Shown: in pieces, positions 1,261 through 22,782 of the stretch
Layout of the letters: each line of letters starts with the position of its first letter
Position numbering within the stretch: position 1 is the first letter of the stretch
NCBI RefSeq assembly: GCF_900129225.1
Contig: NZ_FQUG01000002.1
Location: forward strand, 62,001-126,000
Direction of reading: 5' to 3'
Source: Schwartzia succinivorans DSM 10502
GTDB lineage: Bacteria; Bacillota; Negativicutes; Selenomonadales; Selenomonadaceae
DNA length: 64,000 bases
Notes under the pieces: model-generated
What the model was told of the DNA's origin: nothing
Database searches by the model: none
The model's input: only the letters and a program-made list of their open reading frames with translations
Program-made: the position numbers and the translations under genes

Positions 1261-1303
1261 AAAGGGCAGTGACAAAATGCAACCATTTTGTCACTGCCCT
1301 TTT
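1261..1303. terminator. bidirectional intrinsic terminator between hemL and the kinase operon
   Basis: A long hairpin with arms AAAGGGCAGTGACAAAATG (1261-1279) and its complement starting at 1284, loop of about 4 nt, followed by a T run on the plus strand. On the minus strand a shorter T-rich stretch follows the same stem. It separates the convergent hemL and kinase/DHp transcripts. The stop codon of the small minus-strand gene (1291-1293) lies inside the stem. Confidence 0.9.
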
Positions 1304-1614
1304 TTCATTGATTCGGACCTTATGCCGGCAATTGTTTCCTCCTGCTTTGTTATGTGATCCAGTGCTGCTTTTGTGTTATTGTCCTTCAAGAGCGCGTAGA
1401 GCATCCGGTAATGATGACGGAGGTCGTGGCGCAGTATGCGCGTGGTCTTTATATCCTGCTGTATCAGCTCTGCTTCGTGCTTCAGGGAGTTCAGCCGCAG
1501 CAGAAGAAGATCATTGGCTTCTTCTTTTTGGATGTTGTCGTGCAGCTCCTTACGGAAGATAAGATACACGATGAGGAGCTGGCTCAGTGTGAGGAAAATT
1601 GCAAATATCAGCAT
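1291..1614 (-). CDS. small membrane protein consisting of one helix plus a stand-alone histidine-kinase DHp domain (no ATPase domain)
   Basis: 107 residues. One hydrophobic helix (about residues 2-20) is followed by a coiled-coil/DHp segment with the GHKL-family H-box ILRHDLRHH at about 60-68, then LLKDNNTKAALDHI. The protein stops before any N-box or G-box, so it has a candidate phosphoacceptor His but no catalytic domain. It overlaps the upstream kinase gene by 7 bp. A GGGAGG ribosome site sits in the kinase's last codons about 10 nt before the ATG, and the gene ends in the terminator, which all argue for a real, translationally coupled gene rather than a shadow frame. Over about 57 residues it aligns without gaps to the upstream kinase, where the His position is Asp. 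It may be the phosphoacceptor partner of that kinase. Alternatives are a decayed duplicate kinase or a regulatory decoy. Confidence 0.75.
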   Translation of the reverse strand: MLIFAIFLTLSQLLIVYLIFRKELHDNIQKEEANDLLLLRLNSLKHEAELIQQDIKTTRILRHDLRHHYRMLYALLKDNNTKAALDHITKQEETIAGIRSESMKKGQ

Positions 1615-2971: not shown

Positions 2972-2977
2972 ATTATA
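2972..2977 (-). promoter_or_regulatory. candidate -10 box for the kinase/DHp operon
   Basis: Read on the minus strand this is TATAAT; a second overlapping TATAAT lies at 2967-2972. The -35 position has no good match and abuts the tandem-repeat box at 2997, which fits an activator-dependent or autoregulated promoter. Confidence 0.5.
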
Positions 2978-2996
2978 TACGATTTGTATGGTATTT

Positions 2997-3029
2997 CATC
3001 ACTTTTTCGTTTTTTCCATCACTTTTTGA
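2997..3029. promoter_or_regulatory. tandem direct-repeat box A (probable LytTR regulator binding site)
   Basis: Two copies of CATCACTTTTT begin at 2997 and 3017, a 20-bp period that puts both on nearly the same DNA face. On the opposite strand each gives AAAGTGATG, which resembles known LytTR half-sites (roughly WMMGTTNRK) at 7 of 9 positions. The box lies in the 180-bp divergent space between kinase and regulator. A copy with a single mismatch over about 35 bp recurs at 4136, upstream of the adhesin operon. Binding by the adjacent regulator is inference. Confidence 0.7.
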
Positions 3030-3056
3030 TTACAGGTAAAAAGATTATTGATTATG

Positions 3057-3065
3057 TGCTATGAT
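3057..3065 (+). promoter_or_regulatory. extended -10 promoter of the response-regulator gene
   Basis: TGCTATGAT is an extended -10 (TGnTATGAT). It starts its hexamer 30 bp after the end of the second repeat of box A. No consensus -35 is present at 16-18 bp, so activation from box A is plausible. Confidence 0.55.
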
Positions 3066-3116
3066 TCGTGTAGGAGAAAAATTCAGCAGATATGATGGGA
3101 AAGAAGGGAACAGCTG

Positions 3117-3845
3117 ATGAGATTTGCGGTTGCGGACGACCTGGTGACGGATTTGGAGGCGGCGGAGACACATTTGCGTCAGTACATTGAGACAGCCTTT
3201 CCTGCCGGTATGAAAAATTTTGAGCTTGACACATTCCCGAATGCGGAGGAGCTGCTGAAAAATTTTTCACCGGGGAAATATGACCTTATGATTTTAGATA
3301 TTTTTATGGAAGATATGACCGGTATGGAGGCTGCGGAGGCGATCCGTCTTCAGGATGAAAAGGTTCCCATTGTGTTTTTGACTACGAGTCAGGATTTTAT
3401 GCTGGAGGGCTATCGGGTATTTGCGGCAGGGTATCTTATGAAACCCCTGGAGGAGCATGTAGAAGACTTCAATCGTACAATGAATCATATTCTGCCTTCT
3501 CTGGTAAAGGAAGAAAAAGGAATCCCGGCGGTGATTGACGGGGAGGCTGTTGAGATACCTCTGGGAAGGATTGTTTATGCCGATATCAATACCAGGCATA
3601 AGCTGACATTTCACCTCATGGATATAGAGGTGGAAACGAGTATGGCATATGCACAGTGTCAGGAGCTTTTGCTGACGAAGAGGAATTTTACCGAGTGTTA
3701 TCACCGCATTATTATTAATATGGACTACGTCCACCGCATGGAGGAAGATGATTTTGTAATGAAGGATGGCACGCGACTGCCAATCAGTCAGCGCCGTAAA
3801 AAGGAGACAAAGGCAGTTTACATGCATTATCTGGTGCATCGATGA
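3117..3845 (+). CDS. LytTR-family two-component response regulator
   Basis: 242 residues. An N-terminal receiver domain (about 1-120) has acidic residues DD at 7-8, the phosphoacceptor Asp61 in YDLMILDIFM, Thr90 in FLTTS and Lys109 in YLMKP. The C-terminal half (about 138-240) is a LytTR DNA-binding domain with IVYADINTRHKLTFHL, FTECYHRIIINMDYV and LPISQRRKKE. Such regulators bind tandem direct repeats and usually control extracellular or cell-surface products. It is divergent from the split kinase pair, its presumed phosphodonor. Identical repeat boxes upstream of this gene and of the two-partner secretion operon suggest autoregulation plus control of the adhesin. The SD is AAGAAGGG about 8 nt before the ATG. 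Confidence 0.93.
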   Translation: MRFAVADDLVTDLEAAETHLRQYIETAFPAGMKNFELDTFPNAEELLKNFSPGKYDLMILDIFMEDMTGMEAAEAIRLQDEKVPIVFLTTSQDFMLEGYRVFAAGYLMKPLEEHVEDFNRTMNHILPSLVKEEKGIPAVIDGEAVEIPLGRIVYADINTRHKLTFHLMDIEVETSMAYAQCQELLLTKRNFTECYHRIIINMDYVHRMEEDDFVMKDGTRLPISQRRKKETKAVYMHYLVHR

Positions 3846-3910
3846 TATAAACCCGCGGATGGGTAAAGTCGTGATGCGGCAGGGTGTAAAGATACAGGAA
3901 ATTCGGATGG

Positions 3911-4096
3911 GGCTGTGAAAAAGCATCTCTTGCCTTCCCCATTGGGGAAGGGGGACCACGCAGTGGTGGATGAGGTACACCAAGGAAAGCCGCTATTTAT
4001 GTACATAGCAGGCACTTTGGGGAGCACCTCATCCGAGCCCTTCGGGCCCACCTTCTCCTAAAGGAGAAGGCATTATTGTTGCTTTTTTCACAGTCC
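3911..4096. repeat. long imperfect palindromic intergenic element (MITE/REP-like)
   Basis: This fills most of the 417-bp gap (3846-4262) between regulator and tpsB. The outer arms are GGCTGTGAAAAAGC (3911-3924) and its near complement at 4081-4096. Inner arms TGCCTTCCCCATTGGGGAAGG...GGATGAGGT (3931-3976) mirror 4024-4072, and the centre GCTATTTATGTACATAGC is itself nearly palindromic. No coding capacity is apparent. Similar CCTTCCCC...GGATGAGGT intergenic elements are, from memory, widely dispersed in gut Firmicutes. Transcribed, it would fold into a strong stem that could stop read-through from the regulator gene. Confidence 0.7.
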
Positions 4097-4135
4097 TATT
4101 TTTTCATAAAGAAAAGGTCAAAAGGTATGAAAAAT

Positions 4136-4168
4136 CATCACTTTTTCGATTTTTCCATCACTTTTTGA
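4136..4168. promoter_or_regulatory. tandem direct-repeat box B upstream of the two-partner secretion operon
   Basis: Copies of CATCACTTTTT begin at 4136 and 4156, again 20 bp apart. Over about 35 bp the box differs from box A at a single position. It ends 94 bp before the tpsB start. Confidence 0.7.
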
Positions 4169-4198
4169 TTGGGTATAGATTTTTCTGAATTTTTGGGG

Positions 4199-4204
4199 TA
4201 TTTT
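4199..4204 (+). promoter_or_regulatory. candidate -10 of the adhesin operon
   Basis: TATTTT lies 30 bp after the end of the second repeat of box B, exactly the spacing between box A and the regulator's -10. Other AT-rich hexamers (GATAAT near 4213, TATAAA near 4230) are possible alternatives. Confidence 0.4.
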
Positions 4205-6003: not shown

Positions 6004-9000
6004 ATGTCGGGTTATCTCAGAAAAATACAGCGATACGGGAAATCACATGAGCTTGCGCGCCGCGTTACGTGCGGAATTGCGGCGGCGGGCATTTTCATGC
6101 AGCCCTTTATGCTGCAGGCGGTTTATGCCAGCGAAATTCAGAAGGACGGCAGCGCTGCGCCCATAACGGGAACAGATGGTGTTTACTCTATATTCGCAGA
6201 CAAGGTGAACGGCGATAATGCCGTCAGCGTTTTTTCCAAGTTTGATCTTACTCAGGGCGATATCGCCAACATGTATTTTGGTCTGGATAAAAACGGTAAC
6301 GCTTCGAATCTTTACAACTTCGTAAATGACCATATAAATATCAATGGTACAGTGAATGCCATACGCGGCGGAAATCTTGGCGGAAATATCTTTTTCATCA
6401 GCAGCAACGGAATTACTGTGGGTTCAACAGGCGTAATCAATGCCGGAACAATCAACATGGTAACACCTGTTTCCGGGGATTATTCTTCACTTAAGGGAGA
6501 TGCGCTTGAGAAGGCGGATTTTGATTTGGGAAGCAGGATGGCAAACGGAATGGTCAGCATAAATCCTGAGGGTACTATTCAGGTTGAAGGCAGACTGAAT
6601 GCCGTGGATGGCATCCATATGCAGTCGGCGAATATAAATCTTAAGGGGAATGCTCTCGTAGAGACAGGCGTGGTAGATTTTTCAACTCTTGTAAATCTTT
6701 CTGATGAGCAGAAAACAGCTGCAGGGTTTGGAAACGGCAGCCTTACGGCGACACAGGCAGGAAACGGAGATATTGTCCTTACTGCAGTGGCTGATGGCGC
6801 GACAGGTTCCTTCGCTCACGCGGAGGATTTCTGGGATGTACGCAAGGCGACGGTGACGGCGGACTCGGGAACGCGGATTAACGCTAATGGCGGCACCGGC
6901 AAGGGGGATGTGAAAATCTCTGCGACTGCCAAGAACTCCGATATCGGCTGGTATATGGATGAAAACTTTGACATAACGGTTGAGAATCCTCTGGGAAACA
7001 TTGTTAAGACAGAGGCTTCGATTGACCTTAACGGCAAAATTCATGCAACAAATGCTATTGATGTAAAAGCAACCTCCAGCAATGAGTATAACAGCCTGAA
7101 CGATACAGCCAAGCTCACTGATATCACAGGAGATATCACCCATCTGGCACACTGGGGCAAGGGCTATAATATCGTAAAGCGTGCCAGTGACATCCTGAAC
7201 GTGGATGTTATATACAGTCATCTCGAATCAAAGGCGGAGATAAATGTTGGCGCAGATGCGGAGCTGAAGGCAGATGCGGCATTTGACGGTGCAAAGAATG
7301 CAGTGAATCTTGAGGCGACAAGCGATACTACAAATGTGGTACAGGCAGCCACAAGCAGCGCAGACACGGCGGTTCTTGCGCCGGGCAGTCTCAGCAAGGA
7401 CACGCCAATCCCACCGGCAGGTTCGGGCAGGAAAAAAACGACGCACATTGCAGGAGCTGCGGTTGTTTATGGTGGAGCTCACAGCGAGGCGACGGTAAAT
7501 GTGGACGGTAAGATTGAAGCTGACGGCAGTATAAACGCAAAGGCGAAATCCACTGATGCTGTTGTTGCGAAGTCAAACGCGAACGGTTCAAAGGGAACGA
7601 ATACCGGTACAGCACCAAAGGTAAATATTTCCATAGTTTACGCGGACGGAACAAATTCTGCTGATGTGACCTTTGGCAAAGGTTCTTCAATCAAAAGCAG
7701 TGACGGAAACGTGACTGCAGCGGCAGCCGCGGCGAACAGTATTGATGCGGCGGCAACGGTAACGGCAAATCCCGAGGCACTGGGAAGTACTGCCATCAGT
7801 ATAATGACCTTTGACAGCGATTCAAAGGTTGACCTTAAGGGAACTGTTGAAGCGAATAATGGTGCGGTAGCGGCCTCTGCTACAAATCAGACTGCCCGTG
7901 ACAATGTTACTGCTGCAAACGGCATGAACGGAGCAGAGGAAACAAAAACAAAAGAGTTGTCAGGTGAGGCGGAGAAAAACGGTATCGTGGATGAGGAGCG
8001 GCTGAAGCCGCTTTTGGACGACGTCGCTGAAATTGCTGATGACATAGATAATAAAATTGACGATACAGCAGGTAATGGGAGCAAGCTATCCCGTATGCTG
8101 AAGGAAAAAACAGGCTATGATTCGCTGCTTACCGCCGGGGTAAGTATTGCTGTGGGCGAGCAGGATTTTGACGCGAAGGTAAATGTTGGCAGTGCTGCAG
8201 ACATCAGCGGCGGAGCCGTTTCCCTAACCGCAAAAGAAGACCTGCAGGATTTTCACATGTCCGCGACAGGCAACATGCAGAATAAAAATTCCAAGGACGA
8301 AACGATGATTTCTGCAGACGGCGCTATTCTTATCGGGCTTGTTGACAATAACGCAAGTGTGAATATAGACAGCAGGAACAATGCAGAGCACAGGCACGCG
8401 AAAATCACAGCCCTGGGTGCCGGCGGAATAGTCATCAACGCTCAGAGCACACAGGAATACGACCGTCTTGCGGGCCTTTGGGGTGACATAGAGAAGATAT
8501 ATGGAGATTTTGGGAAATTCATTGATGCTGTCAAGGATGACCCCGATGTTCCTCAGGAAAAAAAGGACGACCTCGAATATAAGGTACAAAAATTCGGAGA
8601 GGCGGTACAGTATCTTAGAAGCGGAATAAAAAAGAGTACGGGACTGGATGTAGCGGATTACACGGTCTCTGTCTCATCACACCCTACAACTCTTACCGGC
8701 GCGGCTTTGACGCTTCTTTCTCTTGCGGCCGGCATAGAGCAGAGTGTGGCAAGTCTCTCACAGGGATACCAGGCTGAAGCTAAAACCATAGTAAAATCCC
8801 TTGAGAATCAGGTTCTCATGTTTTTGACTCCTGAAAAATACGCGAATTTCGCGGCATCCAGCGCGGTGGGCACGGCTGCTGAGGGCTCGATAACCGCGGC
8901 AGGCTCGTTTAATCTGAACCTTCTTGATAACAATGCAAGGGTTAGTGTAGGAAACGGAGCGGTGCTGACGGCAAATGCCGGACCTGTGGTGATTAATTCC

Positions 9001-12000
9001 GAGGCAAAACAGACGAATGTCGTTATGAATGGCAAGGCAAATGTCACAGTAAGTCCCGAGGGGCTTATTGATTCAGTGAAAAAGGCAAAGAACGGAGAAG
9101 CTTTTGATGTCAAAAATATAATCCAGATGGATAAATCCAATGGAGTCGCCGTAGGCGGCTCTCTTGGTGTGTCCGAACATTCCACAACTAACATCGTTGA
9201 CATAGGTGCTGATGCGGAAATCACCGGCATGGATGGCCGCAAGACCATTGATACAGGGGAAAAAGATGATGATGACAATCCGATAACGAGGACGGATGAA
9301 TACAGCGGAATCACAATAAAGGCTGACAATCAGAACATCACCACGGATGTTTCCTACAGCGCGGGTCATGCAGGCAAAGCAGGCTTTGAAGGGCTTTTCT
9401 CGTGGATGGGAGGAGAGGCGAAAAATAATATTTCTATTGACGAAACGGCGAAACTTGACTCGCATTCCCAGACTTCAGATTTCAACACGGAAAAACGCGG
9501 CATTGATATCGAGGGAGATATGAATGTTGTCGGTACGAATCTCGTCGGAGCCGTAGCATGGAGCAGCGGGGCTGTCTCTATGGGTGCTGCTGACGGAATG
9601 TCATGCTATGACATAGATAATATTGTCCATGTAAGGGGCAATCTGAGCATTGACGGCACATCCCACTCAGGCGCGGCGGATTCAGCGCTGGACATAAACG
9701 CTCTTACTGACGGAGTAATCAACACTATTACTCTGGCAGGCGCGCTTACCACAACAAAAGAACCTGACAGCAAAGCTAAGGACGCAGGAGAAATTCTGGG
9801 GGATGATGAGACTATTCATGGGAATAATGATGAAGAGGGTATTGAGGACAGAATCGATATTGAGCTTCGTGACGTTCAGGATGATGCAAATGAAAATGTA
9901 AACGAAGTCAATGAAAATGACAACATAACAAATCCCCGGCAGAACGAAGAAGGAAAAGCAAATGCAAAGCAGGATACAAAAGCTCCGAAGCTTTATCTAT
10001 CCGGAGCGGGAAGCGCGTCGGTAAATATCATTAACACAAAAACCGAGGCAACGCTTAAAAATGCGAAAGTAACGGCGACAGGCGCTGACGCGGGAGCTTC
10101 AGTGCGCGTAAAAGCGGAGGACGCCGCTTTTGTGGGGGCTTGGAGCGGCTCTGCGGCTGTAAACTGGAAGCAGTCTGCAGCAACAAAAGCAGTAGATGAA
10201 GCAGGAGAGATAGCAAACAAGGAAACTGAGAATACAAGAGATACAGAGAAGCATGACCTGCTGGAGCAGCCGGACCACGATAAACCCGAGGCACCGGGAG
10301 AAGACTATAAGGCAGGAAACGAGGGGCTTGAGAGCTACAGTGTGGCAATGGCCGGCGCCGCGGCCATCAACTCCGCAATACAGACGGTCAATGCAAAGGT
10401 AGAAGACACAACCTTCAACCGCCTTGATTCATTGACGAATATCGCACAGAAGGACGGGGCCCTTGTCGCGGCAGGACTTGCCGTGGCAGTAAACAAGGAG
10501 CAGGCAGGCTCGAAGGGGGCAGCAGTTGACGCTGCAGGCTCTGCATCGATAAACGTAACGAAGGCTGATATTACGGCGAAGCTTTCGGATATTGAGGTAA
10601 CTGATAAGACTGACCGCAGGGCCGGGCTTAATAACTATGCCTTTGACAGCGATACTCAGGTTACGGGCGGAGCGAATACCACGTTCCTCATGGGCGGCAA
10701 AATGGGTGTCGGGGCAGGAGGCTCTGCAGCTATTGCGGATATTACCAATGACATAACCGCAGAAATGGACTCCGTCACATTGCATAATGAGCAGGAGGCG
10801 GATATTTCAAACCTCGCGGCAACAGACCTTACACAGGTTACGACTGCAATCGGTGTAAGCGCATCTGTAGGCGCTGAAATGGGCGCAAACTTCAACGGAG
10901 CACTTGCAGGCTCCTTTATAAAGAATAATGATTCTGCGGAAATTATTGATTTGTCTGTGGGAAAAGGCGGACTCATTTCAAATCAGGCGGCTGATACGAA
11001 TAATCTCAGCAAGCATTTTGACCAGGTAATTCAGGATAACGGCCTTGACCCTGTGGGTGTTACATACAGTGACAATGTTTCGGATAATGCTGCCACAACA
11101 GTAGAAAATTCCGTTACCATCAGTACAGATGATAAGAGCAGTACGCTTATTCTTACAGCAGCAATGGATGCTGTAATAAGCACGGGAAAGAAGAGCGTAG
11201 GCGGCGCGGGCGCGGCAGCAGTGTCGACCATAGATAACGACAAGCGTGCAGTTATCAAAGATAAAAAGAATAGGACAATCACAGCGGAGTCACTGAAAAA
11301 CGAGGCATCATCCGATGCGGTTCTCGTAAATATTGCAGGGGGCGCTGCGGTGTCTGCAGGTCCCTTCAGCGGCGCGGGCTCTGCAAGCATACAGTGGACG
11401 AGTAATGACGTTACGGCTTCTGTGGAGAACGCGGATATTAACGTTACAGGAAACGATGGCGTACAAATTTCAGCGGAAACAAAGGATGTTGATGTTAATA
11501 TATCCGGACAGATTTCCGCAGGAAAGAACGCAGCAGGGCTTGCGCTTGCTTATAATCACCTGAACAACAATACTGAGGCATACCTTAAAGGGACGACTCT
11601 GAACTTTAAAGAAAATGCCGAAGCTCCTCTGGAGGTTACGGCAAAGGACAGCGGCACGGTGGTTTCCGTGACGGCAGGAGTCGGCGGTGGAAGTACCGCG
11701 GCAGTGCAGGGTGCTGTTGCTGTAAATCAGGGCAGAAATAACGTTCTTGCCATCGTGGATGAAGGCAGCAGTGGTAAACGCAGCAGTATCAGCAACGCAA
11801 AGAGTATTGATGTATCGGCTAAGGATACAGGTGTAAAGGTCGCTGTGGCAGGAGGCCTTTCGGGCGCAGGCACGGCAGCCGTCGGCGGCGGTGTTGCATA
11901 CAATGAAATCGGAAGCTGGTTCGCAGATGACGATAAGACGGAGGAGGATGAAAAGCACCAGCAGATAAAGGCGGCTTTGCGCCATACGGATATTGTCAAT

Positions 12001-15000
12001 AATAATACGAATAACGGCGCTGTTTCTGTCATCGCAGAGGACAAGGAAAGAATCGGAACAGCAGCGGCAGGCATCGGCGGCGCGGGAACTGCGGCAGTAC
12101 AGGGCGCAGCGGCTACTTCTGTTATGGCACGCAATGTCAGGACAGAGGTTCTTGATGTTGATATGAACGCCTCAAAGGACAGTGCAAAGGACTCCCTGAC
12201 CGCAAAGTCTGAGGCAGACGGAAGCATTTATAATAATGCAATTGTTATCGCAGGCAGCGGTACTGCGTCTGTGGGTGCAGGTGTGTCCGTGAATTATGAT
12301 GGCACTGATACATCTGCGTCCGTATCGTTGGGTGTGTATAAGGTAACAGACCTTGATGTAGAAGCGGCGTCCAGGGAAAAAATAATGAATATCGGTATTG
12401 GAGTTGCAGCGGCGGGAAATGCAGGAATTACGGGCTCTGTGGCGGTCAGCGTACAAACAGGGGATACCGTTGCGCAGCTTGGAGACACTACAGACAGGAC
12501 AACTGTGAAATCCGATTCAAACGTGGTTGTTGCCGCGCAGAGCGACCGCGCAATAGATGTTATGGCAGGAACGGCAGCCGGTGCAGGAGAGGGTGCAGCA
12601 GTCGGGCTTTCCGTCGCTGTCAGCGACATTCAGGGAGATACTAAGGTTATCGTAGAGGGAAAAGAGACGGAAATTTCGGCAAAGGGAGGCCCGGAGGTAA
12701 AGCTCAATGATACACTTGAGGATAATCAGCTGATAAAGGATTATTCTTCGGGCGGAGATGCCATAGTTCCGGGCGTGTATATGGACCGTGTGGAAAATAC
12801 CTATGGCGGGGGCATAATTCTTTCTTCGTCTGCTGCGAATAAGATTGATATCTACAGTGCAAATTCCGGCTTTGCTGCTGTGGGCGGAGCTGTTAACGGA
12901 ACAGTCAACGTCAGTACAATCGGAGGCTCCACTGTAACAGAAGCGGAGGGAGCAGTTTTTGATGCCGGCACAGGAGATATAAATGTTATTGCCAAGGACT
13001 ATGCCAATAATTTCACCGCAGGCGGTGTTGCAAATATGGCAGCAGTGGGAGGCAACGTTGGTTTAGGCAGTGCCACTGTTACAATCAACCGCAACACGGA
13101 GGCTGCGCTTAGGGGGACGATTGCAGGAAATGACAAAACTGTTCTGAACGCGAACAACGCAAAAGTTCACGCTGACGCAGAATACGGCGCGGCAAATGCG
13201 AGCGTCGGAATCGGAATTACAGGAGTTGGCGGCGGAGTCAGCAATGTGGATAATATCACAATGCTTAAAGGACATACTACGGCAGAGCTGTCTGATTTTA
13301 CGGATATGACTGTCGGTAATAACGTTGATGTTCTTGCTAACCGTGAATCCTACATTCACACAATCGGAATAATGGGCGGTATTGCAGGTCTTGGTGCTAA
13401 TGTGGGGCTCGGGGTTGATGTTGTTCAGGATAAGGGCAAGGTAGAATCATGGATAAAGAACAGCAGCATTAAGGGCAAAGCAGTAAATGTTGACGCCAAA
13501 AATCTTACCGACGACAGCTATCAGATGTTTGCGGTGAACGCGGGAGCAGGAGCAGTCAGCGGTACTGTCAGTGTCGGCAATTTTGACAGCAGTGTTAGCG
13601 CGCAGGTGTTAGACAGCACCCTGGGTGAAGAAAATAATAAAATCAAAGACCTTACGGTCAGTGCGGAAAATCAGACGAAGGTCACTCCGAAAAACTGGTC
13701 GGGAAGCGCCGGTGCTGTTGCTTTGGGTGCAGGGGTGCAGGTGGCGACTATCGGTTCCAATGCAAAGGCTGCAGTGACGGGAAGTACGGTGCAGAGCAGT
13801 GGCGATGTGACAGTAGCCGCAAAGGATGAACGCAAGGCTGACCTCATGCTGGGCAATACGCTGTACGGTGGTGTGTCCGGCGGTCTTAATGTGGGTGTGC
13901 TCACGGTCAATCATGCGGTTGCGGATAAATATTCCTATGAGTCTGACGAAGGCGAGACAGCGGATGCAGGGGTGGATCTCGGAGCTGTGTACAAGAGCGC
14001 CAATGAGGCCATTGAAGGGAACCGCATGAGTTCGGATTATACCTTCGGATGGACTTCGGATGCTCCAAAGGTCGAAGCAGGCCGCGGTATGGATGCGGGG
14101 CAGCAGCCCGGCGGAGTCTACGCGGATGTTTCGGGCAGCAGCATAAACGCAGGCGACGGAGTAAAGGTCACGGCAGACGCGGTGACGAATCTCACGGAGA
14201 CAAGCGTCAATGCGGCGTTAAGCGGAGCAAACTTCGGCGGCAGCGTAGGTGTTCTTGATGCGGAAAGCAATACGGGCATTAAAGCAAACGGTACAAATAT
14301 TACGGCAGGTAATGATATTACTTTTGCAAACGGAACAAGCGGAAAATCTGAACTGAATCTTTATATGGGTTCGGCAACGTTAGCCATGAATCTGAACGGA
14401 GCCGTGGGTGTTGCCAATTCCTCGGCAAATAATACCATGACTGTGGAAAACAGCGTGTTGAACACCGCGGGAGGGAATATTTCGCTTTCATCCGGTAATG
14501 AGGAGGAGCTTGCGATTCATGCCGGAGCAGTCAATGCATCCATGGTTACCGGAGCGATTCAGGTGGCAGATGCGGGCATGAGCGGAGACACGGAAATCTC
14601 CATCAGCAATACACGGGCCGAGGCAAGGAAGGACGGAAAGGGCATTTTCGTGACGGCAAAGAACGCGCCCAAGGCAGAGGCAAAGACGGGCATGATGAAT
14701 GCATCTCTCGGAGCCAGCGGCGGTCTTTCAGTCGTTCATGTTGGCATAGGTGATGAAGACAAGCCTCTTGAGACGAAGCTTGATGTTAAAAACGGAAGCA
14801 GCTTTGTCGCGCCTGAGATATCTCTTTTGGCGGAGGCGAACGTTTCCGAGACAGCAATACTTGAATCTATTGCCGGGTCTCTGGGAGAAAATGTTATCAC
14901 AGATGTGAATCACGTCGACGCCTACAGCAACGTGACGGTAAACGTGGAGGAAGCTGCTTACGGAGCGGAGGAGACAAAGACAGATCTTGATATCAAAGGG

Positions 15001-18000
15001 AATAATGTTCTGACGCAGGATTCTTCGGCTCAGGGTTATGATGCGGGTCTTTGGGCCTCCTTCAGCAACAATTTCATGAAGACGAAGGATGTACTGAATA
15101 CCGCGGTTAACGCGAAGGGTGCAAAAAATGGTTCGGTACTTAAAGAAGTATCGGCAGCGGCAGCTTCATCGGTTTCCAACGCTTCAAGGTCGTCCAGCTT
15201 CGGAGGCGGTATGCTTGCCGAGGGTGCTGCTGTGCTTAAAAATGATGTCACCGCGGATACAAAAACGAATCTTTCCGGCAGCTGGACAGTGGACGGAGAT
15301 TTACTTGCATCGGCAGTTAACAAAGAAAATCTGACGCTTAAGGCAGATGCCTCTGCAGCTTCTGTTGTAAATGGCAGCGGTGCGGGATATACAGATACCA
15401 CGACGGAAAATGCGTCTGTTACAAATACGGCAAAGGTTGATACGACAGGAACCCAAAAATATTCTGCAGGAGTTCAGGCTGATAACACAGAGCATATTCT
15501 TGCAAGCGGCTTCGGTGCAATAGGCGGCGTAAATGCGGGCACCATGGATCAGACTCACAAGTACAGCAATCAGGTAAATTTCTCCGGTGCGGAGCTTATT
15601 GCTGACGGAGACATAAAGGCAGCTGCGGCCGCAAAGGGAAGCATTGACAGCAAGAACTTCCTTGATGCGGGAGCAGGCGGACTGGAGGTATCTGTCACAG
15701 ACAGCAGTCTGGATACGGATTTACGGAATGTGGTGAAGGCATCAAATTCCAAATTTAGAACAAATCTTGTAAACAAAGCCGGAGCAGCAGAACAAGGGAA
15801 CTATACGAATCTGGGTGTACCGGGAGGGGAAATCGATTTCGCAGCATATGATGACATCCGCCTGGCCTCTGACACCATCGCCAAGAGTGAGGGCGTTGTG
15901 GCGGGAGTTGCGGTTTCAGACGCGTCAAATAATCTCACGCGCAGCAATGAAGTAAGCCTTAACTCCTCTGCCGTTTCAAGCAGCGGGAATGTGGGTATTT
16001 ACGCAAACAGAAATATCAACGGAGGAAAGACGGGAACGGAGTTGGAGATCCTCAGCGACTCCTATAACCGCACATTCTTACCGTTTTCATCTTCGGCATC
16101 CATAAGCAGCAATGTAAAAAATACAAACAGTGTCGCCATCGACAAAAATTCTACCGTTCAGAGCATCGGAAATATTGCTCTCGCTGCTGACAATGGAAAG
16201 GACAGCATAAGTCAGTCCTCGACAGAGTATCGCTGGTTCACCGATTGCGACAGCGAGGGAACGACAAAAATGAACGGAGATGATTCGGGGCTTGGAAAGC
16301 CTGAGTATAACAACAGCGTAGTCATAGACGGCTCTGTTACTGCAGGAACACATAACAAGGCAAATGTTGAAATTACAGGGGATGTAAAGATAAGCGGTAA
16401 TGAGTCTTCCGGCTATAAAGCTGATATGAGCGGAGTCAAAGTCAATGTAAAGGAAGGTTCTGACTGGCTTACCGGCATTGATTTCCAAAAAGGAACTATC
16501 ACTATTGAGAACGGCTACTATGACCGTTATACGGAGCTTTCTAAAATGCTTCAGACATATACTCCCGGAACAGAGGAGTATAATTCGTACAAAGCGGAGA
16601 TGGATGCATTGTGCGAGGTCATGGTGCAGGCAGGCTTTGCTGTGAAAAATGGCAGCAGCTATGCTGTGGCTAAGAGCCGTGAGGCAGCAGCTGTTGTTGT
16701 GCCCGGTATGACGGTATCCGGCGGAAACGTAGAGATTGAGAGCGGCAAGCTGACCGTTACGGGAAATATCACCGCAAATGGCAGCCCTGAAGTGAAGATT
16801 ACAAATTCCAGCCCGACGTATCTCTATGTCAACGATGTTGTGGTTGAAACCGCAGGCGGTGATGTGACCTTTAACGGAAAATCCCTGTCAGGAAACGATG
16901 TTCCAAATGGAGTAACAGGCAGTAAAAAAATTAAGACTTCTATAGGCAGCGAGGCTTCCGGGGAAATCACGATTTCCAATGTCTGCGGTCCTACTGACCC
17001 GCTGAATCAGCCGGATATCGGTATATACGGTAACGTTACAAATAAAGCAGGCGATGTCACTATCTCCAATGACAGATACAACATCTATGTAGATAAGAAT
17101 GCAACGGTGAGCGGCACTAATATCTACATGAAAGCTGATAACGGCTCGGTTACACAATCGAATCCGAATGGTATTGTCATGATAGGAGCAGACCCGATTG
17201 CTCAATATATGCTTGACCATGCCGAGGATATTCAAAAGGCATTGGATAACTGGCTTAGGGCGGGTAAGGCAATACCTGCGTTCAGCACTTATTCTGATTA
17301 TGTCAATTGGGTTAAATCCTCCAGTGGGCTGAATATTCCTGTGAATGAAAAAGCTTCGGACCCCAGCGCAGGAATTATTGCAAACAACGGTATATTTATC
17401 AGCGGCCATGAGGTTAATATCGGAGGTCTTGTTCAGAGCGGCTACGATACATACTCGGTAAAGCTGACGGATGATTCTGTGGCTAAGGTTATTTCTCTGG
17501 ACAGTGAATGGGCTAAATCCAAGGTGAATCTTTCTGACAGTGATGTGATGTCAGGTACGAAGTATCTTGTTTCTGACAGGGGCGCTTATTATGATGAGAG
17601 CGCAAAATGCTACAAGTATCATGTTGGAGTTTATTACAATCCGTCAACGCAGAAGCTCATTGTTGATGATGTGAAAGCATCAGGCGGACAGATATTCATA
17701 AACGGTAATGTCGGTTCCACAGGGAACGGACGTATTTTGGCCGCATCCGGCGTGGCGAAGATAGACGTGGATACTACAGCCGTAAGTTACCGCGATCTTG
17801 TGCTGAACAATATAACGAACAGCAGCCGCAGCGGATACATCAATATCACAGATACTCTGCAGAACAAGGTGTTTGAGTATTCAAATACGGGAGATGCCGG
17901 AGTCAAAGGCAGGAGCTACGATATTGGAAAGACAGCAGGGGCCTGGGAAAATCTCTCAGGAACTGATATGTATCGTTTCAGCCCCAAGAAAAATCTGACA

Positions 18001-21000
18001 TATCAGTGGACGGGAGGCGTATCGGGCCAGACTGTTAAAACGTATGAGTATGTAACCACAGAATGGATAGGCTGCATTGATTATGATTCACCTACTGAAA
18101 TGACTAAAAATATGCCGGATTCAGAAAAAGAGAAAATACAGACTACCAGCTCTACGAATAATCCGGAAAATGTATTGGATACCAGCAGCTATCTGAAAGA
18201 GGGAAGCAACGGCAGCAAAGAATTTGTTATAAGTGGCACATATTCGGAAAATCTTATCGGAACGAGCCCTGTCACTCATGAGGTAGATAAATTCGCTTTG
18301 GGCTGGATTTATAAGGAAATCACATCAAGATGGTCAGAGACCTACGGAACGGCATCGTCAACTACCTACAGCGTAAAAGCGGACAATGATGTCAGTGTAG
18401 GTTTCCTGAGGGCTGATGTTAACGGGCGTGAAAAGCCTGCCATTGATGTCAATGCAGGAGGTAATCTCATAGTTGACGGAACGATTACATCCGCAACCAA
18501 GGACGATTATGCGTTGCTCAGTTCTATGGGAAATATATCCGGAAATGGCACAATAATAACAAACAACCTTATTGCAGGCGCAACAAAAGGCGTAGATTTG
18601 ACGCAGACCGCGAAAGCTGCCCGGGATTCAGACGGAAACAGTCTGGCTTCGAATATATCGCTCAGCAGTACTTACGGTAAAATCTCTCTTGATTCAAAGA
18701 ACGGAGATATAACACTTGTAGACGCCAGAGTATCAAAAGACGAACTTGGTTCTGAGATAAATATTCACGCTGCAGACAGCATTTTTGCGAATAATCCTGA
18801 GGCACATACTGCTCCGCTTCAGGCGGCGGTTATAAATCTCACAAGTGACCGCGGTTCAATCGGAACAAGGGAAAACGCACTCCGTATAAATGCAGGCTCT
18901 AAGGCTCTAAGCGGCAATGCGGCAGATTCCGGTGTCAGCGCTTTGGCGCAGGAAGGAATCTATCTTGAGCAGAGCAGCGGCGACATGCGCGTTAACCACA
19001 TTGAAAGCAGAAACGGCGATGTTGAGCTGTTTGCTCCGAATGGAAACATCGTAGACGCTTCGGATGCAGAGAGTGTCTCCAATACACCCTCACGCGTGCA
19101 GTCATGGATTGATGCAGGACTCATTTCGGCAGAGGATGCTGATGATTCCAAAGCAAAAATTTCCGGAGAAATTCAGGAATCTACAAAGAAGAATCTCGAA
19201 ATCCGTTTCAGCCAGCTTACGGGAAAGATGGAGAACCGTACTGTTGACGGGTATAAATCCGCGGCTGCGGAATACTCCGATGCAGTAAATTCCGCACGCA
19301 GCGCTTATGTTCAGACGCTTCGTTCCAGCGCGGCAGCGGATGCGGATAAAAAAGCAGCAAAGGCTGCCTACGAGAAGGCACAGAAGGAGTTCTTCGACGG
19401 GAAGGACTACACGGCGGAAGAGCAGAACGCTATTATAGCGTACTCCGAAGCTGTACGGGACGACGCTGTACAGGCATACGGCTGGACGAAAAATGAGCTC
19501 CTGTATGCCATTAAGAGCAGCGTAATCAACAGTGACCCGGGGCGTGTAAGCCTTCTTGATACTGCAAACGTCAAAGGCCGCAATGTAACTCTTCATGCCA
19601 AAGGTATCGGAGCGGACAGCGAAATAACCGTCATCAATAAAGCGGATATCAAGAACCATCTGCAGGAGCTTTCCCAGGCTCATATCGGAGGAGTGACGAA
19701 AAACTACGACGAAAACGGCGAGCTCGTGAGCATTACGCTGGACAATCGCCAGCCGCTCACCTACGAAGTAGATGAGAGTAATCCGAATAATATGGGAAAA
19801 ATCACCGTGGATACTGCGGGTCATATTTACCTCGCCACTACCGCAGGAAAAGCTATGCACCTCAGCAGCGATATGGGCACTGATTCACAGAACGTCATGC
19901 TTTATGCAGGAAACGGCATAGATTCTACAGGTACTGTCTCAGCTAAGGATCTCTCCATGTATGCAGGGCAGGGAAGTATTGGAAGCAAGGCTGATGCCGT
20001 TGATGTAAATGTGGCGGGGACACTTTCAGCTAACAGCGGCGATTCCATATATATTGCGCAGACTGCAGGAGAAAACCTTACACTTCGCGCGCTTGCGGCG
20101 GATAATGATATAGAAATCTCCGCTGAAAAGGATATCCTCATGGAGAAGGACGGAGCAGGTTATATCAATGCCGGAAATATGATTTCCCTGGCCTCGGGCA
20201 GCGGAAGTATCGGTTCGGATGATTCTGCCGTACGCATTTTGGATAATGGTGTTGTCATAAATGCGGCTGCAAGTGAAGGAAACGCATATACCGCAGGAAC
20301 GGGGAACAGCGGCGGAAATCTTGTCCTCGGCAAAATTCAGAGTAAAGAGCTTCATGCCTCAAATGATGAAGGAGATATTGTTCTTTCCAAGGGTGAAAAG
20401 AAAGCAGATATCAGTCTGAACGGTGACTCATCTATTACCGCAAAAAATCTGAATCTCACCGACGGAAGCATAAAAGAGGAAAAAGGGACACTCAGGCTTG
20501 AAGCGGAGAATACAATAGCACAGAAGGATACAGGAAACTCCCGTATATCTACCGGAAAAAATGCAAAGCTGCTGCTGCAGACGGGCAAAGCCTCGGAAGC
20601 AGGAGGCAGCATAGACATCGGCGCAATAGCCAACACCTTCGAAAAGGCAGCGGTATGTGCAGCCGACAGTGAAAAAGGCATAGAAGGAAATGTCCGTGTA
20701 ATATCCAACGCGGAGAACGGGCTTGATGTCACCTTCGGCAACGGTGCGGACACGCTTAAGGTCACAGGCGGAGAAACAGCGAAGCGTATTGATGTCACTG
20801 TACAGAACTGTGCGCCAAAGAGCGACCTTACCATCAACGGAAAGCTGGAAACGACGGACAGAGGAATTGCCTTTACAAGCAGCGGAGCTCTCGCTGAAAA
20901 TGCTGACCTCACCAGTGACAAAAATATGGTGCTGGCGGCCAATGAAAATATTGCCGTCAATGGAGCTCTTACGGCTGAAAACGGAAGCATAGGAATAAAA

Positions 21001-22782
21001 TCGCTGAAAGGAAGCATTGAAGTGACAGGTAAGCTTACGGCTGAAGCGGTAGGCTTGGCTGCACAGAAGGATATCTCCGTCAGCGGCGGTACATCTGCAA
21101 ATAATATAAAGGCAGAGGCCGAAGGCGATGTTAAGCTCTCAGATATTTCTGCTGTGGAAACTTTGCAGGCGAATGCCGGCAATGATGTGACCGTTTCAAA
21201 TAGTGGGGCAGATACTCTGCGTGCAGACGCAGGAGGAAATGCATCCATCTCGGGTACTTCTGCCAAAGCCATGCACGTGGATGCAGTCGGTAACGCCGTG
21301 CTTTCCGAAACGTCTGCTGATATTATGAATGTGTCAGCAGCAGGAGATGCAGTGCTTTCCAAATCGTCTGCCGATATCATGAATGTGTCAGCCGACGGGA
21401 ATATAACGCTGAATGCAGAAGTTACGGCAAAAGATACGGCAAATCTTTATGCAGGAAAGTCCGTGGAGATTGGAAGCAGTCTGAACGTCAACGATCTCTA
21501 CGCGAAGGCAGGAGAGGATATCACCCTCAGGGACGGCGGAAAGACGGTTGCTGAGTCTGCGGCAGGAAACCTTACCCTTGATGCGGGAAAGAATCTTGAG
21601 CTTGGCGTTACGACTGTCAGCGCAGGAAAGAATCTTATGCTCAGGGCAGGCAGGGAAGATGCCAAGCTCCGTGCGGCGGGCGTCGGAGAAATCAATCTCA
21701 CATCTGCGACGGCAGGAGAAAATGCGTCTGTTTACACTAACCGTGGCGCGGCGAATATCGAAACGGTCACTGCCGGGAAAAATATATCCGTTTCAACCGG
21801 AAGCGGAGAGCTTAACGTAGGCACTGCAGAATCGTCCCATGGAAATGTCAATCTTTCTACGAGGAGCGGAGAGATAAATGCAGGAGATGTTGAGGCTGTC
21901 AATGGCAGTGTTAATCTTTCGACGGTAAGCGGTGCTGTAAACGTCACTGGAGATATAAATGCTGCAGGACGTGCGGTGGTTTCCTCTGTCAGTGGAGCCA
22001 TTAACGCAGACAGAAGTATTATCGCAGGCAGTATCGACATTACAGGCGGTGGAAACATTAACGCCAAGAGCCTTAACAGCACAGGAGAAACCTTCCTGAG
22101 TGCAGGCGGCGGAGATATGACCGTAAATACAATTGACGCGGGAGGTCTTACGGCAATTCATAGAGGAACGGGAAGCATGAACCTTTATGAATCTGCAATA
22201 CACGGGGACGGTGCAGTTCTTCATATTGGTAATGGAAACGTGAACCTCGGCAAACTCAGTGTTGGGCATGAGATAGACATTGCTCAGCTCGGCAGCGGAG
22301 ACATCGTCGCAACGGGTGAACTTAAGGCAGGTCAGCGTCTGGAGCTTATGGCGAAAAACGGAAATATGGACCTCAAGGATGTGGACGGCGGCAATCGCCT
22401 GATGATTTTGAACTACGGAAAGGATAAAGACACAAAGGCGGACAGACTCCATGCCGACGAGCTCATTACACTTTATGCAATCAATCAGGATTTTGGAACT
22501 GTTGAGTCGCCGACGGTGCTTGATATTCTTCTGGCAGGAGATCAGACACGCACGGCAGTCGGCTTATGGCACAGTCCGAAGGACGCAGATTTGATTGAGT
22601 TCAACGAGGATGTTCTAAGCGGAGCATATTCCTTCCGCTATGACCTTCTGAAGCTGAATGATCTCATTGATTTCCGTGCCTGGATGCAGAGCATGCCTGA
22701 GAACGCGAAGCCGGGCAGCATTCAGATCGCAGCCGCGGAGAATGAGGATGACAACGAGGAGCTTTTGAGAGCCCTTTCGTAA
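6004..22782 (+). CDS. giant filamentous adhesin / TpsA exoprotein, LktA-like (5592 aa)
   Basis: A single uninterrupted 16.8-kb frame. The N-terminus has an extended signal peptide (about 1-42, ending QAVYASE), then a TPS secretion domain (about 45-300) with the ISSNGITVGSTGVINAGTINM haemagglutination-type motif. The rest is mostly short beta-strands rich in Asn, Gly, Ala, Ser and Thr, consistent with a very long right-handed beta-helix. It resembles proteins annotated as leukotoxin-LktA-family filamentous adhesins in Negativicutes and Fusobacteria. Irregular parts: helical segments at about residues 643-709, 818-949 and 4380-4505, acidic linkers at about 1256-1328 and 1398-1441, a Gly/Ala-rich repeat block at about 1886-2210, and 18-residue repeats at about 5035-5137. 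There is no recognisable C-terminal toxin, cysteine-protease or Hint domain, so a CDI toxin role is unlikely. Predicted role: surface attachment or autoaggregation. SD AAGGAAAGGA. Confidence 0.9.
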   Translation: MSGYLRKIQRYGKSHELARRVTCGIAAAGIFMQPFMLQAVYASEIQKDGSAAPITGTDGVYSIFADKVNGDNAVSVFSKFDLTQGDIANMYFGLDKNGNASNLYNFVNDHININGTVNAIRGGNLGGNIFFISSNGITVGSTGVINAGTINMVTPVSGDYSSLKGDALEKADFDLGSRMANGMVSINPEGTIQVEGRLNAVDGIHMQSANINLKGNALVETGVVDFSTLVNLSDEQKTAAGFGNGSLTATQAGNGDIVLTAVADGATGSFAHAEDFWDVRKATVTADSGTRINANGGTGKGDVKISATAKNSDIGWYMDENFDITVENPLGNIVKTEASIDLNGKIHATNAIDVKATSSNEYNSLNDTAKLTDITGDITHLAHWGKGYNIVKRASDILNVDVIYSHLESKAEINVGADAELKADAAFDGAKNAVNLEATSDTTNVVQAATSSADTAVLAPGSLSKDTPIPPAGSGRKKTTHIAGAAVVYGGAHSEATVNVDGKIEADGSINAKAKSTDAVVAKSNANGSKGTNTGTAPKVNISIVYADGTNSADVTFGKGSSIKSSDGNVTAAAAAANSIDAAATVTANPEALGSTAISIMTFDSDSKVDLKGTVEANNGAVAASATNQTARDNVTAANGMNGAEETKTKELSGEAEKNGIVDEERLKPLLDDVAEIADDIDNKIDDTAGNGSKLSRMLKEKTGYDSLLTAGVSIAVGEQDFDAKVNVGSAADISGGAVSLTAKEDLQDFHMSATGNMQNKNSKDETMISADGAILIGLVDNNASVNIDSRNNAEHRHAKITALGAGGIVINAQSTQEYDRLAGLWGDIEKIYGDFGKFIDAVKDDPDVPQEKKDDLEYKVQKFGEAVQYLRSGIKKSTGLDVADYTVSVSSHPTTLTGAALTLLSLAAGIEQSVASLSQGYQAEAKTIVKSLENQVLMFLTPEKYANFAASSAVGTAAEGSITAAGSFNLNLLDNNARVSVGNGAVLTANAGPVVINSEAKQTNVVMNGKANVTVSPEGLIDSVKKAKNGEAFDVKNIIQMDKSNGVAVGGSLGVSEHSTTNIVDIGADAEITGMDGRKTIDTGEKDDDDNPITRTDEYSGITIKADNQNITTDVSYSAGHAGKAGFEGLFSWMGGEAKNNISIDETAKLDSHSQTSDFNTEKRGIDIEGDMNVVGTNLVGAVAWSSGAVSMGAADGMSCYDIDNIVHVRGNLSIDGTSHSGAADSALDINALTDGVINTITLAGALTTTKEPDSKAKDAGEILGDDETIHGNNDEEGIEDRIDIELRDVQDDANENVNEVNENDNITNPRQNEEGKANAKQDTKAPKLYLSGAGSASVNIINTKTEATLKNAKVTATGADAGASVRVKAEDAAFVGAWSGSAAVNWKQSAATKAVDEAGEIANKETENTRDTEKHDLLEQPDHDKPEAPGEDYKAGNEGLESYSVAMAGAAAINSAIQTVNAKVEDTTFNRLDSLTNIAQKDGALVAAGLAVAVNKEQAGSKGAAVDAAGSASINVTKADITAKLSDIEVTDKTDRRAGLNNYAFDSDTQVTGGANTTFLMGGKMGVGAGGSAAIADITNDITAEMDSVTLHNEQEADISNLAATDLTQVTTAIGVSASVGAEMGANFNGALAGSFIKNNDSAEIIDLSVGKGGLISNQAADTNNLSKHFDQVIQDNGLDPVGVTYSDNVSDNAATTVENSVTISTDDKSSTLILTAAMDAVISTGKKSVGGAGAAAVSTIDNDKRAVIKDKKNRTITAESLKNEASSDAVLVNIAGGAAVSAGPFSGAGSASIQWTSNDVTASVENADINVTGNDGVQISAETKDVDVNISGQISAGKNAAGLALAYNHLNNNTEAYLKGTTLNFKENAEAPLEVTAKDSGTVVSVTAGVGGGSTAAVQGAVAVNQGRNNVLAIVDEGSSGKRSSISNAKSIDVSAKDTGVKVAVAGGLSGAGTAAVGGGVAYNEIGSWFADDDKTEEDEKHQQIKAALRHTDIVNNNTNNGAVSVIAEDKERIGTAAAGIGGAGTAAVQGAAATSVMARNVRTEVLDVDMNASKDSAKDSLTAKSEADGSIYNNAIVIAGSGTASVGAGVSVNYDGTDTSASVSLGVYKVTDLDVEAASREKIMNIGIGVAAAGNAGITGSVAVSVQTGDTVAQLGDTTDRTTVKSDSNVVVAAQSDRAIDVMAGTAAGAGEGAAVGLSVAVSDIQGDTKVIVEGKETEISAKGGPEVKLNDTLEDNQLIKDYSSGGDAIVPGVYMDRVENTYGGGIILSSSAANKIDIYSANSGFAAVGGAVNGTVNVSTIGGSTVTEAEGAVFDAGTGDINVIAKDYANNFTAGGVANMAAVGGNVGLGSATVTINRNTEAALRGTIAGNDKTVLNANNAKVHADAEYGAANASVGIGITGVGGGVSNVDNITMLKGHTTAELSDFTDMTVGNNVDVLANRESYIHTIGIMGGIAGLGANVGLGVDVVQDKGKVESWIKNSSIKGKAVNVDAKNLTDDSYQMFAVNAGAGAVSGTVSVGNFDSSVSAQVLDSTLGEENNKIKDLTVSAENQTKVTPKNWSGSAGAVALGAGVQVATIGSNAKAAVTGSTVQSSGDVTVAAKDERKADLMLGNTLYGGVSGGLNVGVLTVNHAVADKYSYESDEGETADAGVDLGAVYKSANEAIEGNRMSSDYTFGWTSDAPKVEAGRGMDAGQQPGGVYADVSGSSINAGDGVKVTADAVTNLTETSVNAALSGANFGGSVGVLDAESNTGIKANGTNITAGNDITFANGTSGKSELNLYMGSATLAMNLNGAVGVANSSANNTMTVENSVLNTAGGNISLSSGNEEELAIHAGAVNASMVTGAIQVADAGMSGDTEISISNTRAEARKDGKGIFVTAKNAPKAEAKTGMMNASLGASGGLSVVHVGIGDEDKPLETKLDVKNGSSFVAPEISLLAEANVSETAILESIAGSLGENVITDVNHVDAYSNVTVNVEEAAYGAEETKTDLDIKGNNVLTQDSSAQGYDAGLWASFSNNFMKTKDVLNTAVNAKGAKNGSVLKEVSAAAASSVSNASRSSSFGGGMLAEGAAVLKNDVTADTKTNLSGSWTVDGDLLASAVNKENLTLKADASAASVVNGSGAGYTDTTTENASVTNTAKVDTTGTQKYSAGVQADNTEHILASGFGAIGGVNAGTMDQTHKYSNQVNFSGAELIADGDIKAAAAAKGSIDSKNFLDAGAGGLEVSVTDSSLDTDLRNVVKASNSKFRTNLVNKAGAAEQGNYTNLGVPGGEIDFAAYDDIRLASDTIAKSEGVVAGVAVSDASNNLTRSNEVSLNSSAVSSSGNVGIYANRNINGGKTGTELEILSDSYNRTFLPFSSSASISSNVKNTNSVAIDKNSTVQSIGNIALAADNGKDSISQSSTEYRWFTDCDSEGTTKMNGDDSGLGKPEYNNSVVIDGSVTAGTHNKANVEITGDVKISGNESSGYKADMSGVKVNVKEGSDWLTGIDFQKGTITIENGYYDRYTELSKMLQTYTPGTEEYNSYKAEMDALCEVMVQAGFAVKNGSSYAVAKSREAAAVVVPGMTVSGGNVEIESGKLTVTGNITANGSPEVKITNSSPTYLYVNDVVVETAGGDVTFNGKSLSGNDVPNGVTGSKKIKTSIGSEASGEITISNVCGPTDPLNQPDIGIYGNVTNKAGDVTISNDRYNIYVDKNATVSGTNIYMKADNGSVTQSNPNGIVMIGADPIAQYMLDHAEDIQKALDNWLRAGKAIPAFSTYSDYVNWVKSSSGLNIPVNEKASDPSAGIIANNGIFISGHEVNIGGLVQSGYDTYSVKLTDDSVAKVISLDSEWAKSKVNLSDSDVMSGTKYLVSDRGAYYDESAKCYKYHVGVYYNPSTQKLIVDDVKASGGQIFINGNVGSTGNGRILAASGVAKIDVDTTAVSYRDLVLNNITNSSRSGYINITDTLQNKVFEYSNTGDAGVKGRSYDIGKTAGAWENLSGTDMYRFSPKKNLTYQWTGGVSGQTVKTYEYVTTEWIGCIDYDSPTEMTKNMPDSEKEKIQTTSSTNNPENVLDTSSYLKEGSNGSKEFVISGTYSENLIGTSPVTHEVDKFALGWIYKEITSRWSETYGTASSTTYSVKADNDVSVGFLRADVNGREKPAIDVNAGGNLIVDGTITSATKDDYALLSSMGNISGNGTIITNNLIAGATKGVDLTQTAKAARDSDGNSLASNISLSSTYGKISLDSKNGDITLVDARVSKDELGSEINIHAADSIFANNPEAHTAPLQAAVINLTSDRGSIGTRENALRINAGSKALSGNAADSGVSALAQEGIYLEQSSGDMRVNHIESRNGDVELFAPNGNIVDASDAESVSNTPSRVQSWIDAGLISAEDADDSKAKISGEIQESTKKNLEIRFSQLTGKMENRTVDGYKSAAAEYSDAVNSARSAYVQTLRSSAAADADKKAAKAAYEKAQKEFFDGKDYTAEEQNAIIAYSEAVRDDAVQAYGWTKNELLYAIKSSVINSDPGRVSLLDTANVKGRNVTLHAKGIGADSEITVINKADIKNHLQELSQAHIGGVTKNYDENGELVSITLDNRQPLTYEVDESNPNNMGKITVDTAGHIYLATTAGKAMHLSSDMGTDSQNVMLYAGNGIDSTGTVSAKDLSMYAGQGSIGSKADAVDVNVAGTLSANSGDSIYIAQTAGENLTLRALAADNDIEISAEKDILMEKDGAGYINAGNMISLASGSGSIGSDDSAVRILDNGVVINAAASEGNAYTAGTGNSGGNLVLGKIQSKELHASNDEGDIVLSKGEKKADISLNGDSSITAKNLNLTDGSIKEEKGTLRLEAENTIAQKDTGNSRISTGKNAKLLLQTGKASEAGGSIDIGAIANTFEKAAVCAADSEKGIEGNVRVISNAENGLDVTFGNGADTLKVTGGETAKRIDVTVQNCAPKSDLTINGKLETTDRGIAFTSSGALAENADLTSDKNMVLAANENIAVNGALTAENGSIGIKSLKGSIEVTGKLTAEAVGLAAQKDISVSGGTSANNIKAEAEGDVKLSDISAVETLQANAGNDVTVSNSGADTLRADAGGNASISGTSAKAMHVDAVGNAVLSETSADIMNVSAAGDAVLSKSSADIMNVSADGNITLNAEVTAKDTANLYAGKSVEIGSSLNVNDLYAKAGEDITLRDGGKTVAESAAGNLTLDAGKNLELGVTTVSAGKNLMLRAGREDAKLRAAGVGEINLTSATAGENASVYTNRGAANIETVTAGKNISVSTGSGELNVGTAESSHGNVNLSTRSGEINAGDVEAVNGSVNLSTVSGAVNVTGDINAAGRAVVSSVSGAINADRSIIAGSIDITGGGNINAKSLNSTGETFLSAGGGDMTVNTIDAGGLTAIHRGTGSMNLYESAIHGDGAVLHIGNGNVNLGKLSVGHEIDIAQLGSGDIVATGELKAGQRLELMAKNGNMDLKDVDGGNRLMILNYGKDKDTKADRLHADELITLYAINQDFGTVESPTVLDILLAGDQTRTAVGLWHSPKDADLIEFNEDVLSGAYSFRYDLLKLNDLIDFRAWMQSMPENAKPGSIQIAAAENEDDNEELLRALS
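11659..12640 (+). repeat. Gly/Ala-rich degenerate repeat block inside the adhesin gene
   Basis: Six degenerate units start near 11659, 11833, 12055, 12232, 12388 and 12556, a spacing of 156-222 nt (about 52-74 residues). Each carries a core such as GVGGGSTAAVQGAVAV, GLSGAGTAAVGGGVAY or GIGGAGTAAVQGAAAT. Similar cores recur more loosely elsewhere in the protein. Confidence 0.65.
21106..21415 (+). repeat. 54-bp (18-residue) tandem repeats near the adhesin 3' end
   Basis: About six tandem units, with residue pattern (L/M)x(A/V)xAxG(N/D)xxxSxxSAxx. The two most alike units start at 21301 and 21355 and both contain SADIMNVSA, so their DNA is nearly identical. This fits one coil of a beta-helix per unit and recent unit duplication. 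Confidence 0.75.

Follow-up and report, generated by a model that had tools for sequence, protein, structure and literature searches.

Near the start of the window analysed here, a 64-kb stretch (C13:62001-126000) of the genome of the rumen-type bacterium Schwartzia succinivorans DSM 10502, a small set of regulatory genes is followed by genes for the secretion of a very large surface protein. The response regulator is encoded on the plus strand (3117..3845), and its 242 residues combine a receiver domain (PF00072, E = 2.1e-15; 57.3 bits against a cut-off of 30.2) with a LytTR DNA-binding domain (PF04397, E = 7.2e-7; 29.8 bits against a cut-off of 22.6), which places it among the LytTR-family response regulators. 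Divergent from it, on the minus strand, lies the gene for a 442-aa GHKL kinase (PF14501; 1608..2936), the end of which is overlapped by 7 bp by a 107-aa open reading frame (1291..1614, minus strand). The latter has no family match above cut-off, and a HEPN assignment was dismissed because its score (E = 0.015) fell below the model cut-off. Beyond the regulator gene, on the plus strand, a TpsB-type outer-membrane transporter of 566 aa with POTRA_2 and ShlB domains (PF08479/PF03865; 4263..5963) adjoins a giant TpsA-type filamentous adhesin of 5592 aa (6004..22782). The N-terminus of the adhesin matches NF012204 (NCBIfam, LktA-family filamentous adhesin) at 144.8 bits, and PF05860 finds no match in it. 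With a POTRA-bearing TpsB next to a TpsA, the two genes form a two-partner secretion (type Vb) system.

Two copies of one direct repeat, CATCACTTTTT-N9-CATCACTTTTT, stand upstream of these genes. Box 1 (2997..3027, units 2997-3007 and 3017-3027, plus strand) lies 5' of the response-regulator gene and box 2 (4136..4166, units 4136-4146 and 4156-4166, plus strand) lies 5' of the two-partner secretion operon. The sequence-only reading had described duplicate boxes, each of two units 20 bp apart and differing at one base over about 35 bp, and had seen the unit nowhere else in the 64 kb. These claims hold on measurement: the period between units is exactly 20 bp in both boxes; the two can be written as TCATCACTTTTTCG[T/A]TTTTTCCATCACTTTTTGATT, 36 bp with a single difference (3010 T / 4149 A); and the only exact copies of CATCACTTTTT in the window are the four box units, all on the plus strand. 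At one mismatch the unit occurs seven times in the window against 1.97 expected, a number that no shuffle reached. The -10-like hexamers assigned to the boxes are also present, TATGAT at 3060 and TATTTT at 4199 (plus strand), but the gap between box end and hexamer, given as 30 bp, is in fact 32 bp for both.

A scan of both strands of the whole genome (2,658,431 bp in 20 contigs), allowing up to three mismatches, found three boxes, all perfect and all on one strand, and the reversed control pattern gave no match in the same scan. Box 3 (C13:405829-405859) lies about 100 bp upstream of two related tandem genes of 1219 and 1070 codons. Both have a common signal-like N-terminus (KAQAALALAVSLWIAGGG) and VYGG-type repeats, and their C-terminal regions are nearly identical and end in GGVAVTFNF, as expected of autotransporter barrels; no barrel model of Pfam matches them. 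From these features we describe the pair as autotransporter-like (type Va), and on that assignment all three boxes precede either the regulator gene or type V secretion genes, at whose promoters they stand, rather than being scattered over the genome. Elsewhere the genome encodes four further exoproteins with a TPS domain (PF05860; C14:75012-79014, C14:125430, C15:233951), and as none of their genes is accompanied by a box, the box is selective.

A dispersed non-coding repeat of about 180 bp, with imperfect inverted arms, occupies window positions 3915-4100, between the regulator gene and box 2; six other copies are 86-96% identical over nearly their full length, and the genome has many more that are partial or diverged. 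With so abundant an element close by, the boxes might themselves be copies of a dispersed repeat that have no regulatory role. We find this scarcely credible, as the boxes lie outside the 3915-4100 repeat and number only three, and between genera it is the spacer that varies, while half-site, spacing and promoter distance vary little.

The three boxes have a common promoter layout: a weak -35 begins after a gap of 9 bp from the second half-site, and a further 17 bp separate it from the -10. The putative regulator promoter (3037..3065, plus strand) would comprise TAAAAA (3037-3042) and TATGAT (3060-3065), and the putative tpsBA promoter (4176..4204, plus strand) TAGATT (4176-4181) and TATTTT (4199-4204), both assigned from their sequence and from offsets as in other boxes; behind box 3 the hexamers are TAGATT and TATGTT. 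In a non-redundant set of 48 boxes, drawn almost wholly from the family, the match to TTGACA peaks sharply at offset +9 (at least 4/6 in 25 of the 48) and that to TATAAT at offset +32 (at least 4/6 in 24 of the 48). Many boxes of the large genus g13 are without promoter-like hexamers at the expected offsets.

Published LytTR operators consist of 9-bp repeats such as ACCACTTAC, with spacers of 11-13 bp and mostly placed 10 bp before the -35 (PMC6193735), and they have architecture in common rather than sequence (PMC4847170). Expressed as a 9-mer, our box is ATCACTTTT-N11-ATCACTTTT, 10 bp before the -35, and has the architecture of a LytTR operator: paired direct repeats of 9-11 bp, 11-13 bp apart and just 5' of the -35. 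Like the operators of LytTR Regulatory Systems (LRS) and those of the AgrA/ComE/YpdB type (PMC6193735, PMC4847170), it has two direct repeats of 9-10 bp with a short spacer, lies about 10 bp before the -35 and would serve autoregulation; an ACCACTT core is common to those operators and to the ACC variant of the box. It differs from them in its half-site, ATCACTTTTT, and in its targets, which are type V secretion genes, and its 11-bp spacing (20-bp period) is that of a minority class among LytTR operators. Sequence-based mapping to a solved LytTR-DNA complex gave, among the matches listed, receiver domains only.

The boxes are, on this sequence evidence, very probably landing sites where one regulator switches on both its own gene and the giant-adhesin genes. 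We infer the sign of this regulation, and the regulator might instead repress from the boxes. Repression is plausible at the divergent kinase operon, the putative promoter of which (2972..2999, minus strand; -35 ATGAAA at 2999-2994, -10 TATAAT at 2977-2972; 10/12 consensus matches) reaches into the outer end of box 1 with its -35 (2994-2999). As a general account of the boxes, however, repression is improbable: each lies wholly 5' of a weak -35 at fixed spacing, where LytTR activators usually bind (PMC6193735), and stays clear of the promoter that follows it. Alongside activation of the regulator and adhesin genes, the bound regulator might also damp kinase synthesis because of the overlap at box 1, a speculative idea since promoter-like sites of that kind are no commoner in the region than in shuffles.

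Relatives of the regulator (E <= 1e-20) occur in 89 of 189 family genomes, and that of Schwartzia sp. RUI279 (a MAG) is 93% identical. In relatives from several genera the box is conserved in the same position, about 70-190 bp before the start codon of the regulator gene, with the half-sites kept and the spacer diverged. Among 70 distinct upstream regions of regulator relatives, 19 contain a perfect tandem of the CACTTTT core, where dinucleotide shuffles averaged 0.0. The close relatives G063 (69% identity), G198 and G199 have no clear box 5' of the regulator. A further genome, G067, has too short a gap between the genes, and its nearest box is found behind the kinase genes (L106 2735-4518). 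This box is directed through those genes in antisense orientation, with the regulator gene some 1.7 kb ahead of it, and a long, excludon-like antisense leader is possible there.

As a loose scan at three mismatches was too noisy in AT-rich genomes, a strict pattern (AYCACTTTTT twice, with at most one mismatch) was used in its place across the family, and gave 71 boxes in 31 genomes against 2 control matches. Box and regulator (E <= 1e-50) occur together in 26 of the 189 genomes, the box alone in 5 (incomplete genomes), the regulator alone in 29 and neither in 129, an association (odds ratio 23, p = 3.7e-12) that is inflated by the kinship of the genomes. One genome of genus g13, G147, has 28 loose matches (up to three mismatches) against 1 in the control and none in the strict scan, and perhaps carries a variant box with many targets.

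The distribution of boxes also bears on which protein would bind them. The genome encodes exactly two LytTR proteins, and the second (C13:417967-418662) lies 12 kb from box 3; it might be the one that binds the boxes, with the neighbouring regulator a bystander. We regard this as very unlikely, given that boxes precede the gene of the first regulator in several genera, that none of the three boxes in the genome lies upstream of the second, and that distant homologues of the second are widespread in genomes without boxes. The second LytTR system (L004 16539-18674) consists of an ordinary full-length kinase and a regulator, divergently arranged, and then a HlyD-type gene.

With the neighbouring regulator as the predicted binding protein, the genes directly behind boxes in relatives outline its likely reach. 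Besides the regulator gene itself, they encode TpsA-type adhesins (G003, G182), an SLH porin (G001), AIDA-type autotransporters (G067 and, judged by the N-terminus, G075), a glycosyltransferase of the TibC type, which modifies adhesins of the AIDA group (G067, G075), other surface proteins with a signal sequence (G067, G077) and a PilZ protein resembling YcgR (G074). By gene content, this reads as a surface-adhesion regulon, and we found no type V adhesin regulon of this kind in Negativicutes described in the open-licence literature. The link first drawn between the LytTR system and the adhesin operon is well supported and passed those of its refuting conditions that can be checked computationally: the box is not scattered, keeps its position before the regulator gene in relatives and has the geometry of LytTR operators. 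The scheme was incomplete, as it lacked the third target, the wider regulon in relatives and the split kinase.

The two products of the kinase genes are complementary in the motifs that they have lost. The large subunit (442 aa) has membrane helices, a DHp hairpin whose H-box His is lost (Asp260) and an intact GHKL ATPase; the small subunit (107 aa) has an N-terminal membrane helix that runs into a DHp hairpin with the H-box RHDLRHHY (His63), and has no ATPase domain. The second kinase of this type in the genome is an ordinary one, with the H-box RHDLRHYNRLL and the ATPase in one protein; in alignment with it, Asp260 replaces the His in the large protein, and the small protein reads RHDLRHHYRMLYALL. 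All 15 large subunits have lost the His, and every partner has kept it. Among 14 aligned large orthologues it is replaced every time, by D, S, E, N, Q, K or G, with an invariant N-box (NLLEN) and a nearly invariant G-box region; the small partners (n = 12) all have RHDLRHHY and no ATPase. AlphaFold gives the small protein a long helix (2-77) and a second helix (81-105) at a mean pLDDT of 90, a model of a membrane-anchored DHp hairpin. The large protein is modelled as a membrane bundle, DHp helices and a Bergerat fold, with moderate confidence in the DHp-ATPase region, and its best PDB match is AgrC (6e52, E = 5e-9).

This is not a conventional AgrC-type kinase, with the H-box His and the ATPase in one protein, nor is it an LRS, in which a membrane inhibitor takes the place of the histidine kinase, as its regulator carries a receiver domain and is flanked by kinase genes. 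Instead, because the loss is cleanly complementary in 29 adjacent gene pairs, and because longer partners and intermediates exist in other genera, 1608-2936 and 1291-1614 look like a split histidine kinase, with the His and ATPase domains on separate, complementary proteins. DHp-only phosphotransferases such as Spo0B are known, and with that precedent the small H-box protein could be a separate phosphotransfer protein, or else an inhibitor like the membrane inhibitor of an LRS. We consider this rather unlikely: the neighbouring ATPase protein has lost the His completely, in a reciprocal manner, the large and small genes are in every case next to each other and in many cases overlapping, and a path from tandem full kinases to the split pair is marked by intermediates.

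The split kinase appears to be one end of a series. In other genera and in paralogous systems, a partner of about 300 aa, with a membrane domain and an H-box but no ATPase, stands beside a His-less large kinase (17 pairs). Full-length partners are found in G163 and G109, and G027, G062 and G212 look intermediate, G027 keeping both H-boxes with one N-box lost (NLLEAA). The smallest His subunit of the series is that of 107 aa. We read this as a tandem duplication followed by a division of labour. For the Selenomonadaceae as a whole, it is fairly probable that a tandem pair of AgrC-type kinases became, through loss of the ATPase from one half and of the His from the other, an obligate two-protein kinase that drives a LytTR surface-adhesin regulon with an operator type of its own.

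Like AgrC-type GHKL kinase/AgrA-type regulator pairs, the Schwartzia system has a polytopic membrane kinase with a GHKL ATPase and a LytTR response regulator. Unlike them, its catalytic protein is without the phosphoacceptor His, which sits on the separate 107-aa membrane protein, and no peptide gene was identified at the system. Split kinases have been predicted more widely from domain counts. Phosphoacceptor and ATPase are likewise on different proteins in CheA3/CheA4 of Rhodobacter sphaeroides (PMC3591291) and in Hik36/Hik43 of Synechocystis (PMC7656254), and in both cases the halves must cooperate. In contrast to these CheA-type examples, the Schwartzia pair is of the GHKL/AgrC type with both halves membrane-bound, is encoded next to a LytTR regulator and has visible evolutionary intermediates. 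We found no example of an AgrC-type split kinase in the open-licence literature.

Overall, we think it quite likely that the boxes are operators of a LytTR regulator that activates its own gene, the two-partner secretion operon and the autotransporter-like pair, with input from the split kinase. Binding, activation, subunit pairing and phosphotransfer we infer as follows. Acting in trans, the ATPase subunit (1608-2936) would phosphorylate the small membrane subunit (1291-1614) at His63, and the phosphate would pass from there to Asp61 of the regulator. Once phosphorylated, the regulator (3117-3845) would occupy both half-sites as a pair and recruit RNA polymerase; these sites, of 9-10 bp each, are spaced 20 bp apart, would face the same side of the helix and end 9 bp upstream of the weak -35. 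In this way it would activate its own gene, giving positive feedback, together with the two-partner secretion operon that exports the 5592-aa adhesin and the distant pair of autotransporter-like genes at box 3.

For the Negativicutes, which are diderm Firmicutes, the analysis supplies a defined operator for type V adhesin control, together with the geometry of its promoters and a set of target genes. The kinase pairs offer a natural series, from tandem full-length proteins to an ATPase subunit with a 107-aa His subunit, in which to study how and why sensor kinases split. In theory, split kinases can give switch-like output (PMC3591291), which would suit the all-or-none display of a 5592-residue adhesin.

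Finally, regulators that go with ATC boxes have Gln at LytTR residue 225, and those of the ACC-box clade have Arg. A Gln-A/Arg-G specificity code at this residue is kept only as a lead, since each group also forms a clade of its own and genus g13 fits the code imperfectly. A second operator type, ACCACTTTTT-N10-ACCACTTTTT, occurs in genomes with a paralogous LytTR regulator whose residue 225 is Arg in place of Gln, at L109 5710, L121 2346 and L122 1143 in G067, at L050 in G064 and at L088-L105 in G027.
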